A DNA stretch of 57,936 nt from Microbacteriaceae bacterium (lineage in GTDB: Bacteria > Actinomycetota > Actinomycetes > Actinomycetales > Microbacteriaceae). Every line of letters begins with the position of its first letter. The first letter of the stretch is position 1. Below are positions 9,744 to 34,558 of the stretch, piece by piece. Below the pieces are notes generated by a model. That model did no database searches and was not told the DNA's origin. It was given only the letters and a program-made list of their open reading frames with translations. Position numbers and translations under genes: made by a program. Where the stretch lies: contig CANGGL010000004.1 in assembly GCA_947453465.1 (NCBI GenBank), positions 1 to 57,936 on the forward strand. The letters run 5' to 3'.

Positions 9744-10193
9744 TTAGTTTTTAGGCCAAGCCCAAATTTCCAGCTGAACTCCGTCTGGGTCGCGCAAGTA
9801 TGCCCAGCGAGAACCAGCCAAGTCGCCGTCGGTCAAAGTCACTGGTGGGGCATTGAACACCGCTCCGCGCTCAAGCAGTGCTGAGTAGGCCGCATCCATG
9901 TCATCAATCTGCAGACAAATGTGGGTTGCGCCGACATCGCCATTGGTCAGGCTGAAGTCCTTGCCGCGCGGGTTGTGATATTCGAGAAACTCGATTCGGG
10001 TTGCGCCAATCTCGATCATTGAGAAAGATAGCTCGGTGCCCTCAACCTGCACGGCGTCAGACAACTCTTTGCCGTGACCATGGTTCACCGGGCCCGGGGT
10101 CAGGTCGAACATCTTCGAATACCAATCGAATGACCGCTTCATGTCTCGCACGGTTATTCCGATGTGATGCACACCTTCAACTTTGAATGACAT
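9744..10193 (-). CDS. VOC family protein (glyoxalase/dioxygenase-fold metalloenzyme)
   Basis: VHHIGITVRDMKRSFDWY...FLEYHNP...THICLQIDDMDAAY...GVQLEIWAWP; start at MSFKVEG. Confidence 0.88.
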   Translation of the reverse strand: MSFKVEGVHHIGITVRDMKRSFDWYSKMFDLTPGPVNHGHGKELSDAVQVEGTELSFSMIEIGATRIEFLEYHNPRGKDFSLTNGDVGATHICLQIDDMDAAYSALLERGAVFNAPPVTLTDGDLAGSRWAYLRDPDGVQLEIWAWPKN

Positions 10194-10465
10194 GGGCGAA
10201 ACCTTTCTCGGGCTATTTACACTCTCAGTCAACATTATTTGTCGGGTGTTCAGGCTCGTCAACCATAACGGTTTGAAAACGTTTGGAGCTGATTTTTTCC
10301 ACGCTCGAGGCGGTAGCCCAGTAAATCAATGGTTTTTCGAGATTCTTGCGAAAGATATTGACACCATTTCACGCCTCAGGAATGTTGATTCCGTTCAAAC
10401 TGTTCATCTAGACTAAACACGCGTCACAGGCCATAACTGGCCTAGACAGTCGAGGAGGACAAGCA

Positions 10466-11845
10466 ATGACAACTGCAACATTCGGCACCAATCAGGTGGA
10501 CTGGGAACAGCGTCTTGATTTTGACAAGTTGCGCACTGAGCGCCTTGCCAAGCTGAAGGTCGAGCTTGAGAAGTCAAGCGTCGGTGCACTCCTTGCCTTC
10601 GACTTCGCCAACATCCGCTACATGTCTTCGACGCACATCGGCACCTGGGCGATCGACAAGGCCATTCGCTTTGCTCTCGTCACCCGCAAGACCGACCCAA
10701 TTGTCTGGGACTTCGGTTCGGCAGCGAAGCACCACCAGCTTTACAACCCTTGGCTAGACACCACCACCGCCGAGGCCGACGCTGACCCACATGCACCTCA
10801 CCACGGGGCAGTTAAGCCACGCGCCGAGTCTGGCGCACGCGCCGGAATCTCGACCCTTCGTGGTGCTTTCAACCCGGATGCCGGCATCGCCGACGAGGTT
10901 GCCTCAAAGATCAAGCGTGAACTAGAGAAGTACGGACTACTAAATGAGCCTCTAGGAATCGACATCGTTGAGCTCCCGATTTTGTTTGCACTTCAGCGTG
11001 CCGGCATCACAGTGGTTGACGGTCAGCAGATCTTCCTAAACGCACGTGCGGTCAAGACCGGCGAAGAGATCGGATTGCTAACCCAGGCTGCTTCGATGGT
11101 TGATGCTGCCTACGAAAAGCTCTACGAGTTCCTTCGCCCAGGCGTCAAAGAGAACGAGGCCGTCGGTCTAGTTTCGAAGGTTCTTTATGACCTCGGTTCA
11201 GAGTATGTAGAGGGCGTAAACGCCATCTCAGGTGAGCGCTGCTCGCCACACCCACACGTTTATTCAGACCGCTTGATTCGCCCTGGCGACCCTGCCTTCT
11301 TCGACATCCTGCACAGCTATCAGGGTTACCGCACCTGCTACTACCGCACCTTCGCGGTTGGCTCGGCAAGCTCGGCCCAGCACGATGCCTATAAACGTGC
11401 CCGTGAATACATGGACCGCGCGATTGCCTTGGTTCGCCCAGGTGCAACCACCGCAGATATCGTTGCCGTCTGGCCGAAGGCCGAGGAGTTTGGCTTTGCC
11501 AACGAAGAAGCAGCATTTGCTCTTCAGTATGGACACGGTGTTGGTCTGTCGATTTGGGAGAAGCCGATCTTCTCTCGCCTCGTTTCATTCGACCACCCAG
11601 AGGTACTTGTCGAAGGCATGGTCTTCGCACTCGAGACCTACTGGCCATCGGCCGACGGTTGGGGTGCTGCCCGAATCGAAGAAGAAGTTGTGGTGACTGC
11701 CACTGGATGCCAGGTCATCACCAAGTTCCCAGCCGAAGACTTGCTAGTCGCCGGCCAGCGCTACTACTCAGTAGGCGGCCCACTACCTTTGCAGCGCGAC
11801 TCACAGTCGCACCTAAACACCCCTGCGGGTCGCGGCGAAATCTAG
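10466..11845 (+). CDS. M24 family (creatinase/aminopeptidase P/DddP-like) hydrolase or lyase
   Basis: AFFDILHSYQGYRTCYYRTFAVG, LQYGHGVGLSIWEKP, GMVFALETYW, ARIEEEVVVT; RBS GGAGGAC. Confidence 0.85.
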   Translation: MTTATFGTNQVDWEQRLDFDKLRTERLAKLKVELEKSSVGALLAFDFANIRYMSSTHIGTWAIDKAIRFALVTRKTDPIVWDFGSAAKHHQLYNPWLDTTTAEADADPHAPHHGAVKPRAESGARAGISTLRGAFNPDAGIADEVASKIKRELEKYGLLNEPLGIDIVELPILFALQRAGITVVDGQQIFLNARAVKTGEEIGLLTQAASMVDAAYEKLYEFLRPGVKENEAVGLVSKVLYDLGSEYVEGVNAISGERCSPHPHVYSDRLIRPGDPAFFDILHSYQGYRTCYYRTFAVGSASSAQHDAYKRAREYMDRAIALVRPGATTADIVAVWPKAEEFGFANEEAAFALQYGHGVGLSIWEKPIFSRLVSFDHPEVLVEGMVFALETYWPSADGWGAARIEEEVVVTATGCQVITKFPAEDLLVAGQRYYSVGGPLPLQRDSQSHLNTPAGRGEI

Positions 11846-11850
11846 GCATC

Positions 11851-12915
11851 ATGACCAACCAGATGATTGCAGCGGTTTACCACGGCAGTGGTGACGTGAG
11901 AGTTGAAAGCATGGACGTGCCAACCCCGGCTCCGGGCGAGGTTCTCCTCAAGATCTTGCGTTCGGGCATGTGCGGAACCGATGCGTCTGAGTACAAGTCG
12001 GGCCCAAAACTGTTCCCGGTCTTTGCCAAGCACCCAAACAGTGGTCACCAGGGCCCAATGGTCATTGGTCACGAGTTCATCGGTGAAATCATCGGCGAGG
12101 TTGACCCGGCCTCAGGTTTCAAGGCTGGGGACATCGTTGCCTCGGGTGCCGGCATCAGCTGTGGCAAATGCAAGCGTTGCGAAGAGGGTCGAACCAACCT
12201 TTGCGACAAGTATGTAACCCTCGGTCTAAACCGTCACGGCGGAATGGCGCAGTTTGTTGCTGCGCCAACCAGCACTTTGGTTAAGGTTCCCGCCGGAATC
12301 AGTCTCGATGCGGCGGGCATCGCCCAGCCGTTAGCGGTTGGCCTGCATGCGGCTCGCCGCTCAGGCGTGCGCAACGGCGACAAGGTCTTGCTGATCGGCT
12401 CTGGGGCAATCGGCACCTTCGTTCTTGCGGGTCTCAAGCACATCGTCGATGCCGAAGTGACCGTGCTTGATTTTGGCGGCAGTCGCCTAGAGCGCGCTGC
12501 TCGACTCGGTGCTGACCACACGGTCGAGGTTGGCCCAGACGCTGTCGAAAACATCAAGAAGATCTTCGGCTCAACCGGCATCGACGTGGTCATCGAGGCC
12601 AGCGGTGCTCCTGGTCAGTTGCCATTTGCGATTGAGATGGTGAAGCGCGGTGGAACCATTTTGCAGGTTGGCTTGCCATCGACGCACCCAGAAATCGACC
12701 TACACAAGTTGGTCTTGAGTGAAATAGACATCATCACCACGTTGGCGCACGTCTGCGGCGAAGACCTAGCTCCCTCACTAGAGATTCTGAACTCCAGCTC
12801 TCTGGCTCAAGAGCTGATCGAAGGCGTTTATCCTTTGTCACAGATAAGCAACCAACTTGAACTTCTAAGCACCGGCAAAATTCAAGGCAAAGTCCTTTTC
12901 GACCCATCGCTTTGA
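11851..12915 (+). CDS. Zinc-dependent medium-chain alcohol/polyol dehydrogenase
   Basis: MCGTDASEYK, GHEFIGEIIG, CGKCKRCEEGRTNLC, GSGAIGTF; ATG 11851 preferred over the track start. Confidence 0.9.
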   Translation: MTNQMIAAVYHGSGDVRVESMDVPTPAPGEVLLKILRSGMCGTDASEYKSGPKLFPVFAKHPNSGHQGPMVIGHEFIGEIIGEVDPASGFKAGDIVASGAGISCGKCKRCEEGRTNLCDKYVTLGLNRHGGMAQFVAAPTSTLVKVPAGISLDAAGIAQPLAVGLHAARRSGVRNGDKVLLIGSGAIGTFVLAGLKHIVDAEVTVLDFGGSRLERAARLGADHTVEVGPDAVENIKKIFGSTGIDVVIEASGAPGQLPFAIEMVKRGGTILQVGLPSTHPEIDLHKLVLSEIDIITTLAHVCGEDLAPSLEILNSSSLAQELIEGVYPLSQISNQLELLSTGKIQGKVLFDPSL

Positions 12916-12943
12916 AACAGTAACTGAGAAATAGGGAGCAAAA

Positions 12944-14002
12944 ATGAAGGCAGCAATTTTTTACGGAGCCAAGGACATTCGTGTTGAGAATGTGGCCGAG
13001 CCTCAGATGGTTGGCCCTGGTGAAGTGCGACTAAAGCCGTTCTGGTGCGGCATCTGCGGCACCGATGTGCACGAGTATGCGATGGGTCCGATTGTTATCC
13101 CATCGAAGCCTCACAAGCTAAACGGCTCAATCTTGCCTCAGATTCTTGGTCATGAATTCTCTGCTGAGGTGCTTGAACTTGGAAGGGGCGTAACCAACGT
13201 CAAGGTTGGCGACCGGGTCTCGGTTATGCCACTACTTTCTTGTGGTGTTTGCTACTTCTGTTCCCGCGGCGACAACCACCTCTGCACTTCGATGGCATGC
13301 ATCGGTTTGAGCTGCGAATGGGGTGGTATCGCCGAGCAGGCTGTTGTTCCGGCCGCCAACGTGTTCAAGCTGCACGATTCAATGTCTGACGTAGCCGGCG
13401 CGCTAGTCGAGCCTTTGGCGGTGGCTGCCTACGGTGTTGACCGCGGCAACGTTCGTCCTGGAGACACCATCCTGATCACCGGTGCCGGCCCAATCGGCGC
13501 CCTGGCCACCATCTATGCGGAGAACCTAGGCGCACGCGTCTTCGTCTCCGAGCTAAACCCAAACCGCAAGAAGTTAATCGATGACCTGGGTGTGGCAACT
13601 CTGCTTGACCCAACCAAGGATGACGTCACCGCGATTCTGAAGGACGCGACCGGCGGCATCGGCGTTGACGCTGTCATCGAATGTTCGGGTAACGAGCGCG
13701 CGTTGCAGACTGCTGTAAAGGCTGTTCGCTCTGGTGGTTACATCGTTCAGACCGGCCTGCACACTCGCCCAGCATCGATTGAGCCAATGGAGTTCTCAGA
13801 GCGCGAGATTACCTACACCGGAACCTGGTGCTACCCGGTAACCGACTGGCCTCGCATCATCGAACTAATCGGCCGCCGCGGCCTTCCGGTTGAAAAGGTG
13901 GTCAGCTCTCAGATCGCTATGGATGACATCGTTGCCAAGGGTTTCGAAGAGTTGGTTTCACCAACCGGCAACGAAACCAAAGTTCTAGTCAGGGGTTACT
14001 AA
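12944..14002 (+). CDS. 2,3-butanediol dehydrogenase-like Zn-dependent alcohol dehydrogenase
   Basis: ICGTDVHEYAMGPIVIP, GHEFSAEVLELG, SCGVCYFCSRGDNHLC, GAGPIGA. Confidence 0.9.
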   Translation: MKAAIFYGAKDIRVENVAEPQMVGPGEVRLKPFWCGICGTDVHEYAMGPIVIPSKPHKLNGSILPQILGHEFSAEVLELGRGVTNVKVGDRVSVMPLLSCGVCYFCSRGDNHLCTSMACIGLSCEWGGIAEQAVVPAANVFKLHDSMSDVAGALVEPLAVAAYGVDRGNVRPGDTILITGAGPIGALATIYAENLGARVFVSELNPNRKKLIDDLGVATLLDPTKDDVTAILKDATGGIGVDAVIECSGNERALQTAVKAVRSGGYIVQTGLHTRPASIEPMEFSEREITYTGTWCYPVTDWPRIIELIGRRGLPVEKVVSSQIAMDDIVAKGFEELVSPTGNETKVLVRGY

Positions 14003-14004
14003 AC

Positions 14005-14979
14005 ATGAAGGCACTTGAATTCGTCTCAGAAGGCGTAGCCAAGGTTAACGAGCTAGACATCCCAGAGATTGGCGATGACGAGGTACTGATTGCCTCTCGC
14101 GCGGTGGGTGTTTGTCACTCAGACATCGAACTGCTTGAGGGTCGCTACATCATCCCGTTCAGCTACCCAATCATCCCTGGCCACGAGTGGTCGGGTGAGG
14201 TAATGCGCGTCGGCTCCAAGGTGACCAACTTCAAGAAGGGTGACCACGTGGTTGGCGACTGCGTGATTGGCGATGACCACTTTGGTTTCTCAATCAGCGG
14301 TGCGGCCGCCGAGTTCTTCATTACGAAGGAATCATGGCTTCACAAGATTCCAAACAACATCTCTTGGAATAACGGAGCGTTGGTCGAGCCATTCAGTGTG
14401 GCTTATTACGCGTTGATGCGCGTTGGCAACGTAAACGCCAGTGACACCTTGGTTGTGCTTGGTGCAGGGCCAATCGGTCTTGCCGTCACCGCTGCTGCCA
14501 AGGCGCTTGGCGCAAAGACCATCGTGGTTGAGCCCGTTGACTTCCGACAGAAGGCGGCTCACGAACTTGGTGCTGACTATGTCTGCTCTCCAGACGAGAT
14601 CGCGGCAGTTCTGGCCAAGGTAACCGAAGGCCGCGGCGCAAACGTTGTTGTTGAGGCCACCGGCCGCCCAGATGTGATGGCAACCGCGCTTGAGCTGGCT
14701 GGCTTCAAGGGCCGCGTCGCTTACATTGGCATTGATGTTGGTAAGTCTGCGCCGGCACAACTTGGTTTGATCCAGTCAAAGGAGCTCACCATCACCGGGT
14801 CGATTGGTTCACCTGGTGTGTGGGAAGAAACCATTCGATTCATGTCCAACAAGAACATCGATCTTTCACCATTGGTGACAGCTCGATTCACGGTTGATGA
14901 AGCACTCGGCGCAGTAGAGGCGGCACAGCGCCCGATGGAGAACATCAAGGCTCACATTGAGTTCAACGCCAGCATCTAG
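14005..14979 (+). CDS. Zn-type alcohol dehydrogenase (MDR family)
   Basis: VCHSDIELLEG, GHEWSGEVMRVG, LGAGPIGLAV; the four-Cys structural zinc loop seen in the two preceding genes is missing. Confidence 0.88.
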   Translation: MKALEFVSEGVAKVNELDIPEIGDDEVLIASRAVGVCHSDIELLEGRYIIPFSYPIIPGHEWSGEVMRVGSKVTNFKKGDHVVGDCVIGDDHFGFSISGAAAEFFITKESWLHKIPNNISWNNGALVEPFSVAYYALMRVGNVNASDTLVVLGAGPIGLAVTAAAKALGAKTIVVEPVDFRQKAAHELGADYVCSPDEIAAVLAKVTEGRGANVVVEATGRPDVMATALELAGFKGRVAYIGIDVGKSAPAQLGLIQSKELTITGSIGSPGVWEETIRFMSNKNIDLSPLVTARFTVDEALGAVEAAQRPMENIKAHIEFNASI

Positions 14980-14984
14980 GCATA

Positions 14985-15020
14985 AAAAAATGGCCCGTCC
15001 GATTGGACGGGCCATTTTTT
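14985..15020. terminator. Bidirectional Rho-independent terminator
   Basis: AAAAAATGGCCCGTCC-GATT-GGACGGGCCATTTTTT between convergent genes. Confidence 0.93.
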
Positions 15021-15044
15021 GTCCCCTGGAAAGGGAGGAGACGC

Positions 15045-16121
15045 TTACTTTGGAAGAATGTTTGCGTCGCGGTATGCCTGAACGTTTGAGAAGAAGCTCT
15101 TTGGGCTTGATCGGAAGTTCAGGAAGCCAGCTTCGCGAGACTTGGTCATGTCGGTGAAGCACTCTATCTGACGACCTAGGTCGCTGTCGCTGTGCCACCA
15201 TGAAGCCAACTTCGTCACGTCATGCACCGCCAGACCGTGCTTCTTAGCAATCTCTTCCCAGACCGGAGCAGCGTCTTTCATCTGCTCTTCTAGTGGCTGG
15301 AAGTGCTCCGCCTTCGGGCCCTCATACTCGACGCCGAAGTGCTCGGCGATCTGGGGCCATAGCCAGCGCCAGCGGAAGGTATCTCCGTTAGCGATGTTGA
15401 ACGCCTGGTTCTCGCCGGCTGGGTTGGTGGATGCCCAAACCAACTGCTCGCCGAGAAGGTCGGCATCTGTGACGTCGACCACGCCGTTCCAAGCCTGGGT
15501 TGAACCAGGGAAGATGAATGGCTTGCCAAGGGCCTTCTGAATCTCGGCGTAAACCGAAAGGGTCAGCACCATGTTCATGGCGTTGTCTACCGCGTAGCCA
15601 AAGATTGTGTGTGAGCGGTGAACGCTCCAGGTGAAGCCCTGCTTCTTCGCAGCAGAGAATAGCTCGTCTTCTTGGGTGTAGTAGAAGTTAGGGACGTCGA
15701 GGCGAGGCTCATCCTCGTGGAATGGGGTCTCGGCCATCACAGCGTTTGCGTAGTTATCGAATGGGCCGAGGTAGTGCTTCAGGCCGGTCTGAAGGGCGAC
15801 GTGGCGCACTCCACCGTCTGGCTCTAGGGCGGCAAGGAGGTTGCGAATGGTTGCACCATTCACCTCGATGTTCTCAGCCTCGGTGTCCTTCTTGATCCAA
15901 GCGGTCATGAACACGATCTCTGGCTTGAGGCCTGAAAGTGCACTCTTGACGCCTTCTGCGTCTAGGAGGTCTGCCTTGATGTGGTGAACACCAGCCGGAA
16001 GGCCTTCGGTTCTGCGGGAAAGCCCGTGGACATCCCAACCATCCTTCAGAAGCTGCTTAGCGATTACCTGGCCCGAAATGCCGGTTACGCCGACGATGAG
16101 AGCGCGTTTATTGGTGCTCAT
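15045..16121 (-). CDS. SDR family oxidoreductase, PRISE (progesterone 5beta-reductase/iridoid synthase)-like
   Basis: LIVGVTGISGQVIAKQLL; ALQTGLKHYLGPFDNY; PNFYYTQEDELF; TWSVHRSHTIFGYAVDNAMNM; NIANGDTFRWRWLWPQIAEHFGVEYEG; start at MSTNKRAL. Confidence 0.85.
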   Translation of the reverse strand: MSTNKRALIVGVTGISGQVIAKQLLKDGWDVHGLSRRTEGLPAGVHHIKADLLDAEGVKSALSGLKPEIVFMTAWIKKDTEAENIEVNGATIRNLLAALEPDGGVRHVALQTGLKHYLGPFDNYANAVMAETPFHEDEPRLDVPNFYYTQEDELFSAAKKQGFTWSVHRSHTIFGYAVDNAMNMVLTLSVYAEIQKALGKPFIFPGSTQAWNGVVDVTDADLLGEQLVWASTNPAGENQAFNIANGDTFRWRWLWPQIAEHFGVEYEGPKAEHFQPLEEQMKDAAPVWEEIAKKHGLAVHDVTKLASWWHSDSDLGRQIECFTDMTKSREAGFLNFRSSPKSFFSNVQAYRDANILPK

Positions 16122-16203
16122 TCTGAATATCTCCATTTCATCAGTGGTGTTCACTTGAGATGAACGTTACCAGTAAACATTGGGTCAAGATATAGACAAA
16201 TAA

Positions 16204-16396
16204 ATAACGATTTGGTCAGAAATACGCCTAGGGCGAATTGGACGGCTAAATAAATTAGCGGCGACGCACAAGCGCTCTTAAAACCTTGATAAACAGGGGT
16301 TTTCACTCGAAACCAAAATTTATACCACCGGGAATAAAAGCCCGGTCATCGCGCAAGAAAACTGACCTAGAAATAGAAATGTCGCCGAATCGTTAT
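16204..16396. promoter_or_regulatory. Divergent promoter region with an inverted pair of ATAACGATTyGG motifs (16204-16215; 16385-16396 reverse)
   Basis: Direct reading: ataacgatttgg and reverse complement of ccgaatcgttat; 11/12 match. Confidence 0.4.
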
Positions 16397-16486
16397 CGTA
16401 AGTGTGCCTAAACGTTGTCAAGGTTTCATAAAGTAGGACTCAACACAGTGGTAAAGATTCCACGAAAGATGCTTCAAGGAGAACAA

Positions 16487-17524
16487 ATGGCAGATCGAAG
16501 TGCCGCAACCCTTTCAACGGGTTCGCGCTTTCAGGTTTCGAAAGGCCTATTGACTGTCTTGGTTTCGACCGCAGTCCTGTTTGCACTTAGCGCAGCACTT
16601 GCACCAACCAGCGTCGCTCCAGGCACTCTAAGTGGAATGCTCCCATTCGCGGCGATTCTAGCCATCGTCGGTCTTGGTCAGATGCTGGTAATCCAGCAGG
16701 CCGGCATCGACCTATCTGTTGCTGGTTCCGTTTCTCTAGCTGCGGTTATCGTCACCGTGTATCCGACCGGCGACAACAGCAGATTAGTTCCAGCCCTTCT
16801 TATGGCTTTCGGAGTTTCGCTAGCCACCGGACTTCTAAATGGTGTGCTCATCGGTTTCATCAAGTTGAACCCAATCATCGCCACTCTTGGCACCAACTCA
16901 CTTCTATACGGCCTAGTAATGGCGATCTCGCAGGGCATCCCTCGCCAGACCACCTCACGCCTTCAGAGCATCGTCACCAGTGCAACTTTTGGTATTCCCA
17001 ACACCGTTTACTTCGCTCTTGCCACTCTCTTGATTGTGATTCTCTTCTTGCGCAAAACCGTGGCAGGTCGTCGTTTCGAATCAATCGGAGCCAGCCCTGC
17101 GGTGGCGAGCATCTCAGGTCTGCGAGTTCGTACCCACCTAGGTCTTGCCTATGTCTGGGGTCAGTTGCTCTACACGCTTGCCGGTGTCTTGATTGCCGGA
17201 GTTATCTCATCGCCAAACGGTTCGATGGGTGACGCCTACCTACTGCCTTCAGTTGCCGTGGTAGTTCTTGGTGGCACATCACTTCTCGGTGGTCGCGGTT
17301 TGCCAACGGCAACCGTTATCGCTGCTGTCTTCTTGTCTCAGCTAGACCAGTTCGTCTTGGCCCTCGGCGTGAACTTTGCGGTTCGCACCCTGGTACAGGC
17401 TGCTGCGCTAGCGATTGGTGTCGCTATCTACACCGTGGACTGGTCTCGAGTGAGAGCAGTTCTCAACAAACTCCTGTCGGCGAACAGCCGCGGGCAGAAC
17501 CAAGCTTCTTTGCCTTCGGCTTAG
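16487..17524 (+). CDS. RbsC-family sugar-type ABC transporter permease
   Basis: GLGQMLVIQQAGIDLSVAGSVSLAAVI; VVVLGGTSLLGGRG; ATG 16487 with GGAG RBS. Confidence 0.9.
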   Translation: MADRSAATLSTGSRFQVSKGLLTVLVSTAVLFALSAALAPTSVAPGTLSGMLPFAAILAIVGLGQMLVIQQAGIDLSVAGSVSLAAVIVTVYPTGDNSRLVPALLMAFGVSLATGLLNGVLIGFIKLNPIIATLGTNSLLYGLVMAISQGIPRQTTSRLQSIVTSATFGIPNTVYFALATLLIVILFLRKTVAGRRFESIGASPAVASISGLRVRTHLGLAYVWGQLLYTLAGVLIAGVISSPNGSMGDAYLLPSVAVVVLGGTSLLGGRGLPTATVIAAVFLSQLDQFVLALGVNFAVRTLVQAAALAIGVAIYTVDWSRVRAVLNKLLSANSRGQNQASLPSA

Positions 17525-17577
17525 AGGTCAAAAAAGGCGCGACATTGATGTCACGCTGTTAGATGGAGGAAACAAAG

Positions 17578-18672: not shown

Positions 18673-18708
18673 TGAACTAAAGCAGTAAAGAAGTAGCTCC
18701 ACAGGTTG

Positions 18709-18738: not shown

Positions 18739-18778
18739 TGCACCGTCTAAAACAACTTGAAATACCAGGAGAAGCAAA

Positions 18779-23518: not shown

Positions 23519-23637
23519 AGCCAGGTTTTATAACCAATAAATACCGATTTCTTGCAGACTGGGTGAGTTTCGGCGTCGGAATCTGTAAAGTATGGGTAAA
23601 GAAAGAGTGCACCAGGCGCTCGAGTAGAGGAGATTCG

Positions 23638-25719: not shown

Positions 25720-27905
25720 TAGTTCTTACCAAACCCTTCGGCCGAGCGCTTTAGGCCGGCAACGACTTCCTCGGTCTTAGCGATTGCGGCACGCTCAAGC
25801 ACCTTAGAGATGCTTGGTGAAGCCTCGCCGCCGTGAACTCGCTGAACCGGCTGGTCAAGATAGTCAAAGAATCGACGCTGAATTTCGTCAGATAGCCAGC
25901 TGCCATAGCTGGTTCCCTGCGCGCCCTGCTCGACAATCATGACGGCGTTGGTCTTCTTGATGCTGGCTTCGATGGTGTCCCAGTCGAGGCTGGCACGGTC
26001 TAGCCAACGAAGGTCGATGACTTCGGCGTCAACGCCGGTCTGCTCGACTGCTTCGAGTGAGTGGTTGACCATCGAAAGGTAGCTCAGAACGGTCAGGTCG
26101 TTGCCTGCACGCTTGATTGCTGCCTTGCCAAAAGGAATCTGGTAGTCATAGTCACCCACCGCGATCTGGCCCTTTGAGGCATACAGGTCAACGTGCTCAA
26201 TAACCAAAACTGGGTCTTCGAGGGCCAGCGCCGCGTTCATCAAGCCGATGTAGTCGAACGGGTTTGAGGCAGCAACGATGCGCCAGCCCGGTGCAGTGGC
26301 CATGATGCCGGCTGGGTCCATGAGGTGCTGTGAACCGTAGCCCGAGCCCATGGCAACCTTGGTGCGGATAACCACTGGAACCGCAGCGTCGCCACCAAAC
26401 ATGTGACGAGCCTTACCAATCTGGTTGAACACCTGGTCGGCGGCGACCCACATGAAGTCTGGGTACATGAATTCGATAACCGGGCGGAAGCGACCATCCA
26501 AGGCCATGCCGCCACCGAGACCGGCAAATGCGTTCTCGCTGATAGGGGTGCCAAGGATACGGTCCGGGTACTTCTCAACCAAGCCCTTGGTTGCGCCGTT
26601 GGTGCCACCTTTGAGTCGGTGGATATCTTCACCGAGAACGACGATGCGAGAGTCTGTCTCCATGCGGCGGTCCATTACGGCTGCTACGGCATCGACGAAT
26701 CGAACCTCTTCCTTCTCGCCAGTGTGGGTGGCAAATTCTTCGGTGCGGGCACCGTTCAGTTCGCTCGCGTCACCGCGAACACCAACGTTGACGAAGTCAA
26801 CGCTAGGCCACAGCTCTTCGCGAATCTTGCGCGCACCAGGCTTGCCGTTTGCGTCGGCTTCGAGAAGCTCGTTAACGGCCTTTTCCATCGCCGCCTGGGC
26901 CTGAACGCGCACGTTGTCGACCATCTGCTGGTCTAGCAGGCCTAGGTTAATCATTTCGTTGGCTACGCGAACCAGTGGGTCGCGCTGACGCCAAGACTCT
27001 TCTTCGTCCTTCGGGCGATAGCCGAATGCGCTGCCTGGGAATGGGCCATTCTGGTGGAAGAAGCGGTAGACCTCGGCCTCGATGACCGCCGGGCCCTTGC
27101 CGGCACGAACGTGCTCGGCGATTTCCTGCATCGCTAGGTGAACGGCAAGTGGGTCCATGCCATCAACGCGCCAGCTCGGTATTCCGAAGCCGGTGCCGCG
27201 ACCAGATAGTCGCTCTTCTGCGGTTACCTCTGAAACGTGGGTCGAAACCGCATAGAGGTTGTTTTCGATGAAGAACACCAACGGGATGTCCCATGCGGCA
27301 GTTAGGTTCATGGTCTCGAGAACTGACCCGATGTTCACTGCGCCATCGCCGAAGTAGCTGACGGTTAGGTCGCTGGTGCCCGAGTGCTGCTGAGCCCAAG
27401 CGTTTCCAGCGCCAAGTGGCACACCGCCACCAACGATGGCATTGGTTCCCAGCGCTCCGGCTTCCTTCCACTGAAGGTGCATCGATCCGCCGCGACCGCG
27501 GCAGTAACCCTGGGCTAGGCCAAGAATCTCGGCGAGGGTGCGCTGAAGCACAACCTGAATGTCTTCATTGACCAAGTTGGTGACGTCAAGGTTTGGCGCC
27601 ACATAGCCGATGGCCTTGGCCAAGAACTGGTGGTGGCCGCGGTGCGAACCGTTGACGGCGTCGGTGCCGCGAAGGCCAACGATTGAGCCGACTGCGCCAC
27701 CCTCTTGACCGATGCTCGAGTGGGCTGGGCCGTGAACCAAGCCTTCGCCGGCAAGCTGAAGTACTGTCTCTTCAAAGGCACGAATCAGGTGCATCTGGCC
27801 AAGCATGTTTTCAAGCAGGCTTGGGTCGGCATTGCGCCAGTCCTCAGGGGTTGTGCGAAGTTCGATCCAAGGTTCTTTAGGTGAGAGCTGAATCTTCTCG
27901 GTCAT
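25719..27905 (-). CDS. Fused E1 alpha/beta TPP-dependent dehydrogenase
   Basis: Alpha motifs GRGGSMHL, GDGAVNIGS...ENNLYAVST; beta motifs VLGEDIHRLKGGTNGATKGL, TPISENAFAGLGGGMALDGRFRPVIEFMYPDF; start at MTEKIQL. Confidence 0.93.
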   Translation of the reverse strand: MTEKIQLSPKEPWIELRTTPEDWRNADPSLLENMLGQMHLIRAFEETVLQLAGEGLVHGPAHSSIGQEGGAVGSIVGLRGTDAVNGSHRGHHQFLAKAIGYVAPNLDVTNLVNEDIQVVLQRTLAEILGLAQGYCRGRGGSMHLQWKEAGALGTNAIVGGGVPLGAGNAWAQQHSGTSDLTVSYFGDGAVNIGSVLETMNLTAAWDIPLVFFIENNLYAVSTHVSEVTAEERLSGRGTGFGIPSWRVDGMDPLAVHLAMQEIAEHVRAGKGPAVIEAEVYRFFHQNGPFPGSAFGYRPKDEEESWRQRDPLVRVANEMINLGLLDQQMVDNVRVQAQAAMEKAVNELLEADANGKPGARKIREELWPSVDFVNVGVRGDASELNGARTEEFATHTGEKEEVRFVDAVAAVMDRRMETDSRIVVLGEDIHRLKGGTNGATKGLVEKYPDRILGTPISENAFAGLGGGMALDGRFRPVIEFMYPDFMWVAADQVFNQIGKARHMFGGDAAVPVVIRTKVAMGSGYGSQHLMDPAGIMATAPGWRIVAASNPFDYIGLMNAALALEDPVLVIEHVDLYASKGQIAVGDYDYQIPFGKAAIKRAGNDLTVLSYLSMVNHSLEAVEQTGVDAEVIDLRWLDRASLDWDTIEASIKKTNAVMIVEQGAQGTSYGSWLSDEIQRRFFDYLDQPVQRVHGGEASPSISKVLERAAIAKTEEVVAGLKRSAEGFGKN

Positions 27906-27967
27906 CTTTGACTCCAATGTCGGGCTGGGTGAAAACTGTGGATTTACCTAAACTCAAGAATAGCCAA

Positions 27968-28041
27968 ATGTATCCAATTCATTCCAATAAATCTCTAAAT
28001 ACTTATAAAAATGAGATTTATGCGCAAAGATGTATCCAATT
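27968..28041. promoter_or_regulatory. Pair of exact 12-bp direct repeats ATGTATCCAATT in a divergent promoter region
   Basis: Copies at 27968-27979 and 28030-28041 between E1 and VOC/GntR genes. Confidence 0.5.
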
Positions 28042-28059
28042 AGGACTTTAGGAGTCGAA

Positions 28060-28596
28060 ATGAGCAAGGGCATCCCTACTCTTCGCGGAACCGATCACAT
28101 CGGATTCACCGTGCCCGATATTGAAGAGGCAACGCTCTTCTTCAGAGACGTCATCGGCTGCGAACTGGTCTACAGCCTCGGTCCGTTTCAAAGCGATGAC
28201 AACTGGATGGCCGAGCACCTAAACGTCAACCCGCGCACCATCATGAAAGAGATCAGATTCTTCAGATGCCAGTTCGGTTCTAACTTCGAGATCTTTGAAT
28301 ACAAGTCAGCGGATGCTGATGGCCCACGGCCTCAGCCGCGCAATAGTGACATTGGCGGCCACCACCTTTGCTTCTATGTCGATGACATGGATGCGGCGGT
28401 TTCTTATCTAAAGGAGAACAACATCCGAGTCTTGGGCGAACCGACCAAGAGCTCGAATGCGAGTCTCGGCCAGACTTGGGTATATTTCTTAAGTCCGTGG
28501 GGAATGCAGTTTGAACTTTGCACCTATCCGGAAGGCAAGGCCTATGAGAAAGATGCGAAGGTAAAGTTGTGGCACCCAGCTCACCCAGCAGAGTAG
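28060..28596 (+). CDS. VOC family protein (extradiol dioxygenase/glyoxalase-like)
   Basis: TDHIGFTVPDIEEATLFFRDVIG...FEIFEYK...HHLCFYVDDMDAAVSYL...GMQFELCTYP. Confidence 0.9.
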   Translation: MSKGIPTLRGTDHIGFTVPDIEEATLFFRDVIGCELVYSLGPFQSDDNWMAEHLNVNPRTIMKEIRFFRCQFGSNFEIFEYKSADADGPRPQPRNSDIGGHHLCFYVDDMDAAVSYLKENNIRVLGEPTKSSNASLGQTWVYFLSPWGMQFELCTYPEGKAYEKDAKVKLWHPAHPAE

Positions 28597-29210
28597 CTGA
28601 GACTCTTCGCGAAGAAATTCTCAACGGCACTCTGGCGCCGGGCGACCGACTAAGCCAAGAAGACATAGCCCTTAGATTCGGCGTGAGCCGACAGCCCGTG
28701 CGCGATGCACTTCGACAACTCGAAGGCGATGGACTAATAACCATGGTTGCCAACTCTGGCGCCTGGGTTTCCAAGCTCTCAGAGAGCGAGTGCTACGAGG
28801 CTTACCAGGTGCGCGAGCACCTGGAGCCATTGCTACTTTCGCAGAGCATCCCAAACCTCAAGACGGCGCAGATTCAGCGCTTAATTGAGTTGGTTGCCGA
28901 GATTGAACAAGCCACCGATCTTGAGCAGTTCTTGCGTCTAGACCGCGAGTTCCACCTGTTGTCTTATGCCGGTGCCGCACCAGGAATGCTTCGAGAGTTC
29001 GTCGAGCGCATCTGGAACACGACTCAGCACTATCGCCGTGCTTTCGCAAAGCTGAGCGGATTCACTACTTCAGAGGTGACTCACATGGAGCACAAACTCA
29101 TCCTCGACGGGATTGTGCGTCGTGATTCACCGCAGGCCGAAAAGGCGCTTGAGGGGCACATCCGTAGAACTCGCATCACGCTCTCAGAGCATAAGGAAAT
29201 CTTTACCTAG
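28569..29210 (+). CDS. GntR family regulator, FCD (FadR) type
   Basis: RVAETLREEILNGTLAPGDRLSQEDIALRFGVSRQPVRDALRQLEGDGLI; C-terminal FCD-like helices; GTG start overlapping the VOC gene. Confidence 0.92.
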   Translation: MAPSSPSRVAETLREEILNGTLAPGDRLSQEDIALRFGVSRQPVRDALRQLEGDGLITMVANSGAWVSKLSESECYEAYQVREHLEPLLLSQSIPNLKTAQIQRLIELVAEIEQATDLEQFLRLDREFHLLSYAGAAPGMLREFVERIWNTTQHYRRAFAKLSGFTTSEVTHMEHKLILDGIVRRDSPQAEKALEGHIRRTRITLSEHKEIFT

Positions 29211-30997
29211 GCCAAATTGGCTTTCAAAATCTCAAGCTGCCCGCGCATCGCTGCTGGCAGGCGCTCGCCGAATTGGTTGAAGTAAGCCTCGGTCATGTTG
29301 GTCTCCTGAAGCCAGGCAGAGCGATCAATCCGAAAGATTTCATCAAGATCCTCAGTGGTCACGGTCAGGCCCTCGAGGTTTAGGTCTGAAAGCGCTGGGA
29401 GATTGCCAATTGGAGAGGCGCTTGCTGCAACCGATCCATCCAGGCGTCTCGAAATCCATTCAAGAACGCGAGTGTTTTCGCCGAAACCTGGCCAGAGAAA
29501 CTTGCCATCCTGACCTTTTCGGAACCAGTTAACCTGAAACACCTGCGGGCGATTTTCGGCCGATAACCCGAGCCCCACGTCAAGCCAGTGCTGCCAGTAA
29601 TCGGCCATGTTGTAACCGCAAAATGGCAACATCGCAAACGGGTCGCGTCGAAGGGTGCCGACCACGCCTTCCGCTGCCGCGGTCTGCTCAGATGAGATCG
29701 TCGCTCCCATGAAAACTCCGTGCTCCCAGTCGCGCGCTTCGACGACCAGTGGAACATTGGTTGCCCGGCGGCCGCCAAACAAGATCGCGTCAATCTCAAC
29801 ACCCTCGGGTGAATTCCATGCTGCGTCGATGGTGGGGCACTGTTCCAACGAAACCGTAAATCTTGAATTTGGGTGGGCTGCTGGCGTATCCGACTTGGGG
29901 GTCCAGTCGGCTCCGGTCCAGTCAATCAGGTGCTCTGGAGCCTCATTGGTCAACCCTTCCCACCAAACATCGCCTTCATCGGTCAGCGCAACGTTTGTGA
30001 AAAGCGTGTTGGCTCGAATTGTTTCGATCGCCACCGGGTTGGTCTTTATGCCTGTTCCCGGAGCCACTCCGAAGAATCCGGCTTCAGGGTTGATCGCCCG
30101 CAGTTTTCCGTTGGTGTCCGGCGCAATCCAGGCAATGTCGTCGCCAATGGTGGAGACCTTCCATCCTGGGAGCGTTGGGCGAAGCATGGCGAGGTTTGTC
30201 TTTCCGCACGCGGACGGGAACGCTGCTGCGATGTGAAAGTCTTTGCCTGCTGGTGAGGTTAGGCGCACCAAGAGCATATGTTCGGCCAACCAACCTTCGC
30301 GTCGGCCGAGAGCCGACCCGATTCGAAGAGACATGCACTTCTTGCCGAGCAGCGCATTTCCACCATAGCCCGAGCCGAATGACCAGATTTCATTGGTCTC
30401 AGGGAAGTGGGCGATGTACTTTTCGACGTTGCAAGGCCAGGTGGTCTCAGGGGTTCTTACGCCAACTTCATCAATCAGGGGCGCTCCAACTGAATGCAGG
30501 GCTGGAACCCAGTCGTCACCCGATTTAATCTTGGTCAGCACTTCCGATGAAACTCGCGTCATCAACTTCATGCTGAGAACCACGTAAGGGGAGTCCGTGA
30601 TTTCAATTCCGAAACGTGCCTGAGGAGAGTCAATCGGGCCCATAGAAAATGGCACAACGTACATCGTGCGTCCACGCATGCTGCCCTTGAACAGGCTGCG
30701 CAGCAGGTTCTTCATCCAGAGGGGGTCGCGCCAGTTATTAGTCGGGCCGGCATCTTCTTCGTGTGCGCTACAGATGAACGTTCGGTCTTCAACGCGGGCT
30801 ACATCGGCCTTGTCGGTTCGGGCTAGGAAGCTGTTTGGGCGAAGATCGGGGTTTAGTCGGATCAAGGTACCGTTCTCAACTAGTAATTCAGTCAATTCTG
30901 TCCACTCGCGCTGAGATCCGTCACACCACACAATTTCATCCGGCATGGTCAATTTAGCGGTTTCTGCAACCCAATTTTCGACGGTGAGCTTAGTCAT
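29207..30997 (-). CDS. pckG: Phosphoenolpyruvate carboxykinase (GTP)
   Basis: FPSACGKTNLAMLRPTLPGWKVSTIGDDIAWI; FGGRRATNVPLVVEARDWEHGVFMGATISSEQTAA. Confidence 0.97.
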   Translation of the reverse strand: MTKLTVENWVAETAKLTMPDEIVWCDGSQREWTELTELLVENGTLIRLNPDLRPNSFLARTDKADVARVEDRTFICSAHEEDAGPTNNWRDPLWMKNLLRSLFKGSMRGRTMYVVPFSMGPIDSPQARFGIEITDSPYVVLSMKLMTRVSSEVLTKIKSGDDWVPALHSVGAPLIDEVGVRTPETTWPCNVEKYIAHFPETNEIWSFGSGYGGNALLGKKCMSLRIGSALGRREGWLAEHMLLVRLTSPAGKDFHIAAAFPSACGKTNLAMLRPTLPGWKVSTIGDDIAWIAPDTNGKLRAINPEAGFFGVAPGTGIKTNPVAIETIRANTLFTNVALTDEGDVWWEGLTNEAPEHLIDWTGADWTPKSDTPAAHPNSRFTVSLEQCPTIDAAWNSPEGVEIDAILFGGRRATNVPLVVEARDWEHGVFMGATISSEQTAAAEGVVGTLRRDPFAMLPFCGYNMADYWQHWLDVGLGLSAENRPQVFQVNWFRKGQDGKFLWPGFGENTRVLEWISRRLDGSVAASASPIGNLPALSDLNLEGLTVTTEDLDEIFRIDRSAWLQETNMTEAYFNQFGERLPAAMRGQLEILKANLA

Positions 30998-31118: not shown

Positions 31119-32600
31119 ATGTCTATCAGTGCTCAAGACGAAGCTCGAGTTCTTGCCAGCGTGCCGAAAGGCGTCTTTATTGATGGTGTTTGGCGTGACT
31201 CCTCGGACGGATCGACTCTTGATGTGACTGACCCAGCCACCGGTGCGGTTGTCGCCACGATTGCCAGCGCTACCGCCGCTGATGGCTTGGCTGCGCTTGA
31301 TGCGGCACACCGCGCCCAGGCGGCTTGGGCAAAAACGGCCCCTCGCTACCGTGCCGAACTGTTGAGGTCAGCTTTCGATCGAGTAATCGAGCTGGCCGAT
31401 GACTTTGCAATTCTGATGTCAATTGAGATGGGTAAACCATTCGCTGAAGCCAAGGGTGAGGTGCTTTACGGCGCAGAGTTCTTGCGCTGGTTCAGCGAAG
31501 AAGCTGCCCGCGTCGCCGGTCGATTCGGCACCGCACCAGACGGCAAGATGCGCTTGATGGTTCAAAAGCGCCCAGTTGGACCGAGTCTTTTTATAACCCC
31601 TTGGAACTTTCCGCTTGCAATGGCTACTAGAAAGATAGCCCCTGCAATCGCTGCAGGTTGCACCAGTGTGCTCAAGCCTGCCGCTCTGACCCCGCTAACC
31701 TCGCTGCTGTTCGCGAAGGTGCTGCAAGAAGTTGGCGTGCCAGCTGGTGTGATCAACGTGATTCCCACATCTTCGTCAGGCGCAGTAACTGGCCCGATTA
31801 TCAAGGATGAGCGACTTCGCAAACTTTCATTCACCGGCTCAACCCCGGTCGGTCGCCGCCTAATTGCCGACTCGGCTGACCGCGTGCTTCGCGTCTCGAT
31901 GGAACTTGGTGGCAATGCGCCATTCTTGGTTTTCGAAGATGCCGATATCGATAAGGCTGTTAACGGCGCGATGCTCGCAAAACTACGCAACATGGGTGAG
32001 GCCTGCACCGCTGCCAATCGCATGATCGTGCACGAGAGCGTGGCAGCCGAGTTCTCAACCAAGTTAACCGCCAAGATGAGCGAACTAAAGGTTCAGCGTG
32101 GCCTGAGCGATGGCGCCAACATCGGTCCGATCATTGATGAGAAGAGCCGCCGCTCGATTCACGAGCTGGTTACCGATGCCGTATCAAAGGGCGCAACGGT
32201 TCTTACTGGCGGTGAGATTCCGACTGGCGTTGGCTATTTCTACCCACCTACAGTGCTCACGGGTGTGAGCAAGGATGCTCGAATTCTTCAGGAAGAAGTC
32301 TTCGGCCCGGTTGCACCGATTGTGACCTTCAGCACCGAGGCAGAGGCTGTGGCCTTGGCTAACAACACCGAATATGGTCTGGTTGCCTATGCCTTCACCA
32401 AGGATCTGAACCGCGGTCTACGTTTGGCCGAAAGCCTCGAAATCGGAATGTTCGGTTTGAACACAGGTATTGTCTCGAACCCAGCTGCACCATTCGGCGG
32501 AGTCAAGGCATCCGGTGTTGGTCGCGAAGGCGGCCGCGAAGGCATCGAAGAATATCTAGAGACCGTTTACATCGGAATCGCTGACCCATTCGAAGACTAA
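31119..32600 (+). CDS. gabD: NAD(P)-dependent aldehyde dehydrogenase, succinate-semialdehyde dehydrogenase-like
   Basis: ITPWNFPLAMATRKIAPAIAAGCT; MELGGNAPFLVF; GEACTAANR active Cys; EEVFGPVAPI. Confidence 0.9.
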   Translation: MSISAQDEARVLASVPKGVFIDGVWRDSSDGSTLDVTDPATGAVVATIASATAADGLAALDAAHRAQAAWAKTAPRYRAELLRSAFDRVIELADDFAILMSIEMGKPFAEAKGEVLYGAEFLRWFSEEAARVAGRFGTAPDGKMRLMVQKRPVGPSLFITPWNFPLAMATRKIAPAIAAGCTSVLKPAALTPLTSLLFAKVLQEVGVPAGVINVIPTSSSGAVTGPIIKDERLRKLSFTGSTPVGRRLIADSADRVLRVSMELGGNAPFLVFEDADIDKAVNGAMLAKLRNMGEACTAANRMIVHESVAAEFSTKLTAKMSELKVQRGLSDGANIGPIIDEKSRRSIHELVTDAVSKGATVLTGGEIPTGVGYFYPPTVLTGVSKDARILQEEVFGPVAPIVTFSTEAEAVALANNTEYGLVAYAFTKDLNRGLRLAESLEIGMFGLNTGIVSNPAAPFGGVKASGVGREGGREGIEEYLETVYIGIADPFED

Positions 32601-32619
32601 GCGCTAGCGTTTTGGCGAG

Positions 32620-33456
32620 CTAGATTGGTTCGATGCCGTACGCGCGGGCCAGCTTGTCGATCTTCTCGGCGCGACCAAGGCGAGGCATGTCTGAGCCATC
32701 GCGAATCACGCGGCCGCGGGCCTCGAAATCGTTGAGGAAGTCGCGAGCCCAGGTCACATCGGCCTGAGTGGGGCAGATGGTCTCGTTGATTACAGGTATC
32801 TGACCGGCGTCCACGGTGAGTTTGCCGGTGAGGCCAAGAACCACGGTGTGTTCCGAGGCAACGCGCAGCTGGCTGTAGCTGGTGGTTATGGTTGGGCCAT
32901 CGATTGGGCCAGGCAATCCACCGATGCGGCTGGCGGTGACCAGGCGTGAACGTGGATAAAGCATCGCCATGTCGTCGGCCGCGGTGCCGGTGTCTCGGCG
33001 ATAGTCTCCACTGCCGAAGGCCAGCCTGAAAGTTCCGCGGGCAGAGGCAATGTTGCGCGCCTCCTCGATTCCGAGAGCCGATTCGACCAGCGCGACAACC
33101 GGAGTTGACCCACCAAGGGCATCGAAGGTCGCCTCGACTTGAGAGGCATCTTCAACCTTGGCGAGCATGACGCCGAGAAGGTTCTCGACACCCTTGAGGG
33201 CTGCGCAATCGGCCGCCCAGAATGGCGTGGTGTAGTCATTGATTCGAACCCAGGCTTTATTGCCCGCATTGAGCCAGGCGATGACATCGACGAGGGCTTG
33301 AGGTTTTAGCTTCGGGTCAACGGCGTCTTCAACGTCAAGCACCAACTGGTCCGCGCCAGAAGCGGCCGCCTTGTCAAAGTTGTCTACCTTGGTCGCTGCA
33401 AACAGCAGCCAAGAACGCGAAATTTCGGCGGGGATATGCTTCTTCTTTGAGGACAT
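32620..33456 (-). CDS. CoA ester lyase / HpcH-HpaI/CitE-like protein
   Basis: SWLLFAATKVDNFDKAAASGADQLVLDVEDAVDP; ALVESALGIEEARNIA. Confidence 0.88.
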   Translation of the reverse strand: MSSKKKHIPAEISRSWLLFAATKVDNFDKAAASGADQLVLDVEDAVDPKLKPQALVDVIAWLNAGNKAWVRINDYTTPFWAADCAALKGVENLLGVMLAKVEDASQVEATFDALGGSTPVVALVESALGIEEARNIASARGTFRLAFGSGDYRRDTGTAADDMAMLYPRSRLVTASRIGGLPGPIDGPTITTSYSQLRVASEHTVVLGLTGKLTVDAGQIPVINETICPTQADVTWARDFLNDFEARGRVIRDGSDMPRLGRAEKIDKLARAYGIEPI

Positions 33457-33514
33457 ATTCCGAGCCTAACAGCGGATGGAATTCTCCGCGCCGACGAGAT
33501 CTTCTTGGTGCCGA

Positions 33515-34558
33515 CTAGATCTTCTGAGCGTCAATCACAAAGCGGTAGCGAATGTCGCTGGCGACGACGCGCTCGTACGCTGCGTCAATAGCTGCCGCAT
33601 CCGAACCATCCAAGAGTTCGATGGTGGCACCGATCTTGTGCTTGGCACAGAAGTCGAGCATCTCTTGGGTTGCCTTCATGCCACCGGTGTTTGAGCCGGC
33701 GATTGACTTGCGGCCATCGACAATGCTGAATGGGTTGTATGACTGGCGGGTGCCAGGCAGGCCAACGTTCACCAAGGCTCCATCGACGCGGAGCATAGCT
33801 AGAAGGCCGTCGACATTTAGGTCGGCAGAGGTGGTGTTCAAAATCATGTCGAACTTATTTTTGACGATTCCGATTGACTCGGCGGTGGTTAGGTAATCAA
33901 CCGCGCCGAATGCCAAGGCGTCTGCCTTCTTCGATGCAGAGTGGCCAAGCACGGTTACTTCGGCACCGAGGGCAATGGCAATCTTGACGCCGAGGTGGCC
34001 GAGGCCACCCATGCCAAGGATGGCAACCTTCTTGCCTGGCCCGGCGTTCCAGTGGGTTAGCGGGGTATAGACGGTGATACCGGCGCACAGCAGCGGCGCG
34101 GTTTCGGCCAGGTCAACATCGTCGGCGATGTGAACGGCAAATCGCTCTTCAACCACGGTCTCGCGCGCGTAGCCACCGAATGCCGGCTCACCATCGTAGT
34201 GACGGCTGTTGTAGCTGGCGACCGGGCCCTTGATGCAGTAGTTCTCCATGTCGGCCAGGCAGTATTCACACTCGCGGCATGAGTCGACAAAGACGCCAAC
34301 GCCGATTCGGTCGCCGACCTTGAACTTGGTTACGGCCGAGCCAACCTCGGTGACGATTCCCGCCATCTCGTGGCCCGGGACCATCGGGAAGATGCCGGCT
34401 GACCACTCGTTGCGAACCTGGTGGATGTCACTGTGACAGATTCCAGAAAACTTGATGTCCAACTTCACGCTGGTTGGGCCCATCGGCCGAAGCTTCATGT
34501 CTTGTGCGGTTAGCTTGGCGCTGGCGGTTGCTGCAACGAGTGATCGAGTAGTAGTCAT
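33515..34558 (-). CDS. NAD(P)-dependent alcohol dehydrogenase (YahK/cinnamyl-alcohol dehydrogenase type)
   Basis: GICHSDIHQVRNEW; VPGHEMAGIVTEVG; VGVFVDSCRECEYCLADMENYC; GLGHLGVKIA. Confidence 0.93.
   Translation of the reverse strand: MTTTRSLVAATASAKLTAQDMKLRPMGPTSVKLDIKFSGICHSDIHQVRNEWSAGIFPMVPGHEMAGIVTEVGSAVTKFKVGDRIGVGVFVDSCRECEYCLADMENYCIKGPVASYNSRHYDGEPAFGGYARETVVEERFAVHIADDVDLAETAPLLCAGITVYTPLTHWNAGPGKKVAILGMGGLGHLGVKIAIALGAEVTVLGHSASKKADALAFGAVDYLTTAESIGIVKNKFDMILNTTSADLNVDGLLAMLRVDGALVNVGLPGTRQSYNPFSIVDGRKSIAGSNTGGMKATQEMLDFCAKHKIGATIELLDGSDAAAIDAAYERVVASDIRYRFVIDAQKI

Follow-up and report, generated by a model that had tools for sequence, protein, structure and literature searches.

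The 57,936-nucleotide window analysed here (contig CANGGL010000004.1, positions 1 to 57,936) belongs to the metagenome-assembled genome of a small freshwater Microbacteriaceae bacterium (MAG; GCA_947453465.1, 1.43-Mb, 74 contigs, 85% complete) and encodes a conserved catabolic system of ~17 genes that is built from known enzyme families and, as far as the searched literature shows, is undescribed. Its core unit spans 10466-29210, with genes for phosphoenolpyruvate carboxykinase (PEPCK) and an SSADH-like aldehyde dehydrogenase (ALDH) as satellites up to 32600 (Table 1). From its gene families, conservation, modularity and exchanges of partner genes among relatives, we infer a substrate, an order of steps and products. 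Our favoured reading, held with about as much doubt as confidence, is an accessory two-module cluster that would degrade a cyclitol-like ring compound and split the ring into acetyl-CoA and a C4 semialdehyde; the substrate is probably an inositol relative. A preliminary description of this DNA had proposed a single catabolic system in which an RbsABC-type importer is combined with serial dehydrogenases, an E1/E2 complex and a TIM barrel of the EboE type, and shared clustering across genomes supports that proposal. It had also held that no described pathway has this combination, and none was found in the literature searched, which offered nothing usable on inositol in freshwater actinobacteria, mycosporine catabolism or resorcinol bqd genes.

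Conservation of the unit across genomes

A scan of 84,980 genomes yielded 80 named EboE loci. Genes of the cluster recur jointly in Microbacteriaceae, Nocardioidaceae, Nanopelagicales and other freshwater actinobacteria, with a reduced form in Proteobacteria and Acidobacteria, and the system extends beyond Microbacteriaceae. The cluster is accessory, because a close EboE orthologue is encoded by only 6 of 250 genomes sampled from the family Microbacteriaceae and 15 of 67 from the genus (own genome counted). Most of the same genes surround EboE in all five other EboE-bearing family genomes, in a different order. The block is syntenic in MAGs (for example, L038, L041 and L065) and intact but reordered in Cryobacterium, Galbitalea, Agromyces, Lacisediminihabitans, Marmoricola and Nocardioides. 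In the 15 long loci of the L038-L066 range, which come from Microbacteriaceae and Nocardioidaceae and have flanks of 10 kb, ADH3 is present in all 15, E1, E2, VOC2, GntR and PRISE in 14 each, ADH1 and ADH2 in 13 each, HIBADH and the ABC-permease fusion in 11 each, M24 in 8 (within these 10-kb flanks), PEPCK in 5 and ALDH in 3. Where EboE identity falls to 58-62%, in more distant loci of Nanopelagicales, Kribbella, Nonomuraea, Terrabacter and Phycicoccus, the importer is retained, in most of them with ADH2 and M24. In Proteobacteria and Acidobacteria, EboE stays close to a HIBADH and a Gfo/Idh oxidoreductase. The gene-neighbourhood comparison suggested in the preliminary description thus found the block kept across relatives rather than a lack of co-occurrence, and 10466-29210 is a real unit, clustered far beyond chance.

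The edges of the region as first described fared differently. Aldehyde oxidation and PEPCK hold their place as recurrent neighbours (PEPCK within 15 of the 80 EboE loci) but not as core members, and the CitE-like protein and the last dehydrogenase (ADH4), once counted as members, occur in none of the 80 related loci. Both VOC enzymes are present as described, but VOC1 is variable across loci: VOC1-like genes lie near EboE in many, mostly at 28-36% identity.

Some same-genus MAGs carry EboE-like copies with one in-frame stop (G287:C7:10898-12139, G307:C10:9445-10692 and G295:C11:27248-28465), either decaying genes or assembly errors. Another genome of the genus (G294) has two EboE-like copies, on C19 and C43, through duplication or strain mixture; L048 and L050 may be the same records.

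Two modules with different distributions

The cluster splits into an upper module, comprising the importer, ADH1-3, PRISE and the EboE-like protein, and a much more widespread lower module, comprising M24, XRE-cupin, VOC2, GntR, E1, E2, a HIBADH-like gene and often SSADH. Among the 250 family genomes, M24 occurs in 49 and the fused E1 in 60, with 48 shared (hypergeometric P = 8e-39; counts not corrected for phylogeny, 29 genera involved for M24 and 34 for E1). M24 and E1 lie within 20 kb of each other in 36 of 40 measured pairs (median 7.5 kb), and close EboE orthologues are found, in this sample, only inside this M24/E1 set. Conversely, M24 was found in 14 of the 15 EboE-bearing genomes checked, in some of them unlinked, and the fused E1 (65-78% identity) in 19 of 26; six of the seven EboE genomes without it have split E1 alpha and beta genes beside M24, near EboE or elsewhere. 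Paraburkholderia BL9I2N2 is the single exception in both sets, with no M24 and neither form of E1. The lower module is wider than the upper one in the family sample and is therefore older or more mobile, and other upper modules feed into it. Its parts also keep company elsewhere: the fused E1 has 59-72% homologues in catabolic plasmid modules, a VOC gene adjoins E1/E2 on several plasmids, and GntR stands beside VOC2/E1 in relatives.

Three proteobacterial loci (L154, L155 and L157) combine a fused E1 (65-71% identity) with SDRs and a shikimate-dehydrogenase-like gene, two of them also with VOC, E2 and lpdA; these perhaps encode a hydroaromatic pathway that shares the ring-cleaving complex.

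Partner exchanges point to a likely node at the hydroxyquinol level

The Paraburkholderia BL9I2N2 locus encodes orthologues of EboE (61%), PRISE (52%), ADH2 (54%) and ADH3 (47%), together with Gfo/Idh, SDRs, two ketopantoate-reductase-like proteins and two RbsABC-type importers. The same ~33 kb contains two pairs of hydroxyquinol 1,2-dioxygenase (HQD) and maleylacetate reductase. The dioxygenases match 1tmx at E = 5e-96 versus only ~1e-33 for catechol types, the reductases match 3w5s and 3hl0, and a BKACE protein of the locus is closest to 3-oxoadipate:acetyl-CoA acetyltransferase. PRISE, reductase and dioxygenase genes follow one another on a single strand. The Gfo/Idh partners are most similar to IolG.

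Catabolic plasmids provide a second set of exchanges. On plasmid NZ_CP127116.1 of Paenarthrobacter sp. R1 (L161, 15205-22473), sulR is followed by genes for RidA, M24 (78%), HIBADH (44%), an SDR and lpdA, and a 54% homologue of XRE-cupin lies beside M24. E1/E2/VOC2 of P. ureafaciens SD-1 stand beside a flavin monooxygenase that is 73% identical to the R1 enzyme; the 42-kb plasmid that bears them also encodes M24 (81%). The sad sulfonamide pathway proceeds via 4-aminophenol to 1,2,4-trihydroxybenzene (PMC10873849), and in sulfonamide degraders the sulR-adjacent set of R1 is a candidate for the lower pathway of 4-aminophenol/trihydroxybenzene. Rhodococcus opacus 1CP encodes M24, VOC2 and XRE in a transposon-containing region, within ~17 kb of homologues of maleylacetate reductase and HQD, and one Nanopelagicales MAG encodes HQD 4 kb from EboE. 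Together, these exchanges of neighbours indicate that the modules are likely to meet at hydroxyquinol or at a cyclohexane-polyone of the same level. A generic polyol or terpenoid diol, compounds of the kind considered earlier, gives way to a ring substrate at the cyclitol/hydroxyquinol level, to which the neighbours in relatives point. Other EboE genomes (Lacisediminihabitans, Marmoricola, Nocardioides, Kribbella, Nonomuraea and an acidobacterial MAG) also encode hydroxyquinol-type or other intradiol dioxygenases. These were not counted, as they are on other contigs, at a distance of at least ~20 kb, or lack a shown link.

Predicted functions of the upper module

The top PDB sequence matches of the importer's binding protein are 4irx and 4rxm, which we take to be myo-inositol binders. 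The fused ATPase-permease form is also found in relatives. ADH3 and ADH2 score 192 and 186 bits against IolM (scyllo-inosose dehydrogenase), short of its cut-off of 450. PRISE matches structures of the progesterone 5-beta-reductase/iridoid type (6el3 and 2v6f, E down to 1e-86), and its catalytic K126 (TGLKHY motif) and Y159 (NFYY motif) are invariant in 21/21 homologues; since both are kept, an enone step is likely, and the predicted reductase implies a conjugated enone intermediate. Such matches could also suit degradation of a terpenoid, iridoid or steroid-like plant enone, with PRISE acting on the natural enone, as its closest solved structures include plant progesterone 5-beta-reductase and iridoid synthase. 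We consider this very unlikely: the importer family serves small hydrophilic ligands, the cluster has no oxygenase or beta-oxidation genes, relatives of EboE and the ADHs are cyclitol or sugar enzymes, and the plant matches reflect which structures are solved.

The EboE-like protein passes the NF035939 cut-off (392 versus 250 bits), and a sequence search of the PDB returned nothing significant. Its AlphaFold (AF2) model, predicted with confidence (pLDDT 87.5), is a xylose-isomerase-like barrel with UlaE, SCO6571, Art22, AsbF (3-dehydroshikimate dehydratase), AtHYD, IolI and tagatose epimerase (DTE) as Foldseek partners. Ten residues (E199, E201, D253, H256, K280, Q282, H345, H347, E382 and E384) are invariant in 80/80 homologues, a set as for a metal-dependent isomerase or dehydratase. 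Instead of simply isomerising its substrate, the protein may dehydrate it. EboE stands beside a 3-dehydroquinate-synthase homologue in true ebo clusters and beside a myo-inositol-phosphate-synthase homologue in those of Streptomyces and Microbacteriaceae. Both synthases make polyhydroxylated rings, and a cyclitol is therefore the natural reading for the EboE substrate. For the EboE family, this provides a catabolic context that is open to experiment and makes cyclitols a lead.

Passing the family cut-off also raises the prospect of an ebo-type biosynthesis or trafficking cluster with EboE in metabolite export. The scytonemin-associated ebo cluster (PMC6282210) shares with the window an EboE family protein, and its partners are cyclitol-type cyclases. 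However, none of EboA, EboB (TatD), EboC (UbiA), EboD (cyclase) and EboF, which are present in true ebo clusters, is encoded within 9744-34558, EboE of this cluster type forms its own clade (support 100/100, in a tree where some ebo branches are long), and its neighbours are an importer and catabolic genes. Ebo biosynthesis was ruled out as an identity on the absent partners and the separate clade, and an ebo-type function is extremely improbable.

Two observations concern EboE neighbourhoods elsewhere. In actinobacterial ebo clusters the myo-inositol-phosphate-synthase homologue takes the place of the 3-dehydroquinate-synthase-like EboD (L197:1494-7137; L036:15033-16328; L037:4943-6223), which suggests an ebo product with a cyclitol. 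A gene of the cobalamin-independent methionine synthase family (MetE-like) lies near EboE at L114:4529-5710 and in nine other proteobacterial or acidobacterial loci, and might point to an O-methylated cyclitol substrate.

Predicted functions of the lower module

M24 is 74-96% identical in related clusters of the family. Residues D280, C291, H357, E390 and E406 are invariant in 35/35 homologues, so that the five-ligand set (D, D, H, E, E) is broken at its second Asp, which prolidases retain at position 291; Cys in place of a metal-ligand Asp indicates that the protein is not an ordinary M24 peptidase. The dimethylsulfoniopropionate lyase DddP was rejected as an identity (100 bits versus a cut-off of 600). 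Among the other putative enzymes of ring opening, the HIBADH-like protein keeps its likely catalytic K171 in 23/23 homologues and VOC2 keeps H23, E87, H111, H112 and E162 in 22/22. The satellites score 936 versus 504 bits (PEPCK, NF003253) and 548 versus 646 bits (SSADH-like ALDH, TIGR01780).

E1 alpha and beta and the lipoyl, E3-binding and catalytic domains of E2 are all present (Pfam), and no equivalog cut-off was reached for pyruvate, branched-chain oxoacid or acetoin complexes. E2 falls just below the cut-off for the pyruvate dehydrogenase E2 acetyltransferase (TIGR01349, 433 versus 445 bits), which favours acetyl as the acyl group. AceE and KGDH are encoded separately in the genome, and the housekeeping role thus does not fall to the fused E1. 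The E1/E2 domains are typical of 2-oxoacid dehydrogenases, sugars are the usual cargo of RbsABC-type importers and the EboE fold matches sugar isomerases, all of which would suit an acyclic polyol or sugar that is imported and oxidised, with EboE as a ketose isomerase and a 2-oxoacid decarboxylated by E1/E2 to acyl-CoA. This alternative is unlikely, as it leaves PRISE, the HQD/maleylacetate reductase exchange, the sulfonamide-plasmid context and the cyclitol-synthase partners of EboE unexplained, and the conserved unit has no kinase or aldolase.

A proposed route and the points against it

In the proposed cyclitol route, the RbsABC-type importer would take up the substrate and ADH1-3 would convert ring hydroxyls to ketones by oxidation. 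The EboE-like TIM barrel, a metal-binding protein with the fold of IolI and AsbF, would isomerise or dehydrate the keto-cyclitol, and PRISE would reduce the resulting conjugated enone. M24, VOC2 and the HIBADH-like enzyme would open a cyclohexane-polyone at the hydroxyquinol oxidation level and adjust its redox state; ring hydrolysis by M24 is the weakest assignment of the route. The thiamine pyrophosphate (TPP)/lipoyl E1/E2 complex would cleave an acyloin or alpha-diketone, releasing acetyl-CoA and a C4 semialdehyde, a C4 product being proposed because an SSADH-type ALDH gene lies beside M24/E1/E2 in other bacteria (Streptomyces and Phaeobacter). The SSADH-like ALDH would yield succinate, and PEPCK would return carbon to gluconeogenesis. 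Carbon balances as 2 + 4 for a C6 ring. One balanced example, offered as a proposal only and improbable in its details, runs from 4-hydroxycyclohexane-1,3-dione via 4-hydroxy-5-oxohexanoate to acetyl-CoA and succinate semialdehyde.

Several points weigh against this reading. No second Burkholderiaceae genome with a close EboE was found in 350, and the hydroxyquinol replacement rests on one genome. No enzyme of the cluster reaches an equivalog cut-off for a cyclitol enzyme, and we know of no M24 enzyme that opens carbocycles. The binding protein has Glu where its nearest solved relatives have an aligned Arg, which makes myo-inositol itself doubtful; this loss, with a distinctive residue set of its own that is invariant in 36/36 homologues, indicates that the ligand is probably neither plain ribose nor myo-inositol. 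The sulfonamide-plasmid link is one of neighbourhood only, the amidase and RidA genes there suit N-compounds, and amidohydrolases are encoded at some lower-module loci, which leaves room for an N-containing ring as the common node. An amino-cyclitol or N-heterocycle might accordingly be degraded, with the amine removed by enzymes encoded elsewhere and the lower module serving an N-ring or aminophenol-derived compound; amidases, RidA, flavin monooxygenases and amidohydrolases occur near the module in Paenarthrobacter, Salipiger, Streptomyces and other Microbacteriaceae. We judge this decidedly unlikely for the window, where the cluster has no amidase, RidA, aminotransferase or amidohydrolase gene and the importer is of the sugar type.

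A broader form of the cyclitol reading is tentative: a dioxygenase-free route in freshwater actinobacteria, in which M24 would open hydroxyquinol-level polyones and E1/E2 would release acetyl-CoA and a C4 semialdehyde, with the same module finishing 1,2,4-trihydroxybenzene in sulfonamide degraders. If true, it would provide ring cleavage of hydroxyquinol-level compounds without a dioxygenase and a candidate lower pathway of 4-aminophenol and sulfonamide degradation. The cluster takes up ~1.5% of a streamlined 1.4-Mb genome, and Nanopelagicales and related freshwater actinobacteria have it as well; the compound on which it acts is therefore probably of importance in lakes.

Comparison with known pathways

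Canonical and Thermotoga-type inositol (iol) pathways are similar in their sugar-type importer, IolM-like ADHs, TIM-barrel isomerase/dehydratase fold and TPP-dependent C-C cleavage, as well as in the IolG-like Gfo/Idh of relatives. The window cluster differs by its PRISE, M24 and E1/E2 complex and by missing the IolM cut-off, and a search covering the cluster's 20 proteins gave no family match to IolD, IolB, IolC, IolE-type proteins or IolJ. Likeness to the hydroxyquinol and sad pathways lies in HQD and maleylacetate reductase in the Paraburkholderia EboE/PRISE locus and in M24/HIBADH/E1/E2/VOC beside sad-type monooxygenase genes. In contrast, the window genome (85% complete) has no PF00775 match and thus no detectable intradiol dioxygenase, and ring fission would proceed by hydrolysis and E1/E2. 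A likely parallel is the resorcinol pathway by which Azoarcus anaerobius degrades this compound anaerobically: its hydroxybenzoquinone-cleaving complex is E1/E2/E3-like and uses a ring compound derived from hydroxyhydroquinone. The window cluster, in contrast, has no resorcinol hydroxylase. The anaerobic phloroglucinol pathway shares ring enone/keto tautomer reduction, hydrolytic ring opening and a hydroxyacid dehydrogenase (PMC10470551). Its cyclohydrolase is of the 'cyclase' family, which rules out identity with the window cluster, and its dehydrogenase is of the 3-hydroxyacyl-CoA family, not EboE/HIBADH (PMC10470551).

Gene inventory

All genes named for 9744-34558 in the preliminary description are intact open reading frames (ORFs) near the positions it gave, and its family labels hold (one M24, four Zn-ADHs with three in tandem, PRISE, EboE, E1/E2, two VOC, both regulators, PEPCK, SSADH-like ALDH and CitE-like). 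Its coordinates mostly stand, except for the starts of ADH1 (11854, not 11554, the listed ORF extending back into the M24 gene), XRE-cupin (near 23635) and EboE (probably 23464, where most family members begin). Packing is tight: 3 bases separate HIBADH from EboE, E1 shares one base with E2, and VOC2 and GntR overlap by 28 bases.

Table 1 Genes of the cluster and adjoining region, in window coordinates.
Feature	Position	Strand	Basis or remark
VOC1, glyoxalase/epimerase-type metalloprotein	9744..10262	-	PF13669/PF00903; variable member
M24 'pita-bread' protein, lower module	10466..11845	+	PF00557
ADH1, Zn-dependent medium-chain dehydrogenase	11854..12915	+	PF08240/PF00107; kept in related clusters
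ADH2, Zn-dependent medium-chain dehydrogenase	12944..14002	+	second-best NCBIfam match IolM
ADH3, Zn-type dehydrogenase, short form	14005..14979	+	best NCBIfam match IolM
PRISE enone (1,4-) reductase, predicted	15045..16154	-	PF22917
Importer permease	16415..17524	+	PF02653
Sugar-type substrate-binding protein	17563..18672	+	PF13407
Importer ATPase (two ABC domains) fused to second permease	18779..21292	+	PF00005 x2 + PF02653
HIBADH-like beta-hydroxyacid dehydrogenase	21383..22261	-	PF03446/PF14833
EboE-like TIM barrel, xylose-isomerase-like fold	22265..23518, probable start 23464	-	NF035939
XRE-cupin regulator	23635..24351	+	PF01381 + PF07883
E2 acyltransferase (lipoyl, E3-binding, catalytic)	24382..25719	-	PF00364/PF02817/PF00198
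Fused E1 alpha+beta (TPP)	25719..27917	-	PF00676/PF02779/PF02780
VOC2, paired with E1/E2	28030..28596	+	invariant residues; E1/E2-adjacent VOC on plasmids
GntR-FCD regulator of lower module	28569..29210	+	PF00392 + PF07729
GTP-dependent PEPCK, recurrent satellite	29207..30997	-	NF003253
SSADH-like ALDH, recurrent satellite	31119..32600	+	TIGR01780
CitE-like protein and Ahr-like ADH (ADH4)	32620-34558		adjoining the cluster, outside the unit

The closest NCBIfam model of the CitE-like protein is RipC (108 versus 375 bits), and ADH4 is Ahr-like.

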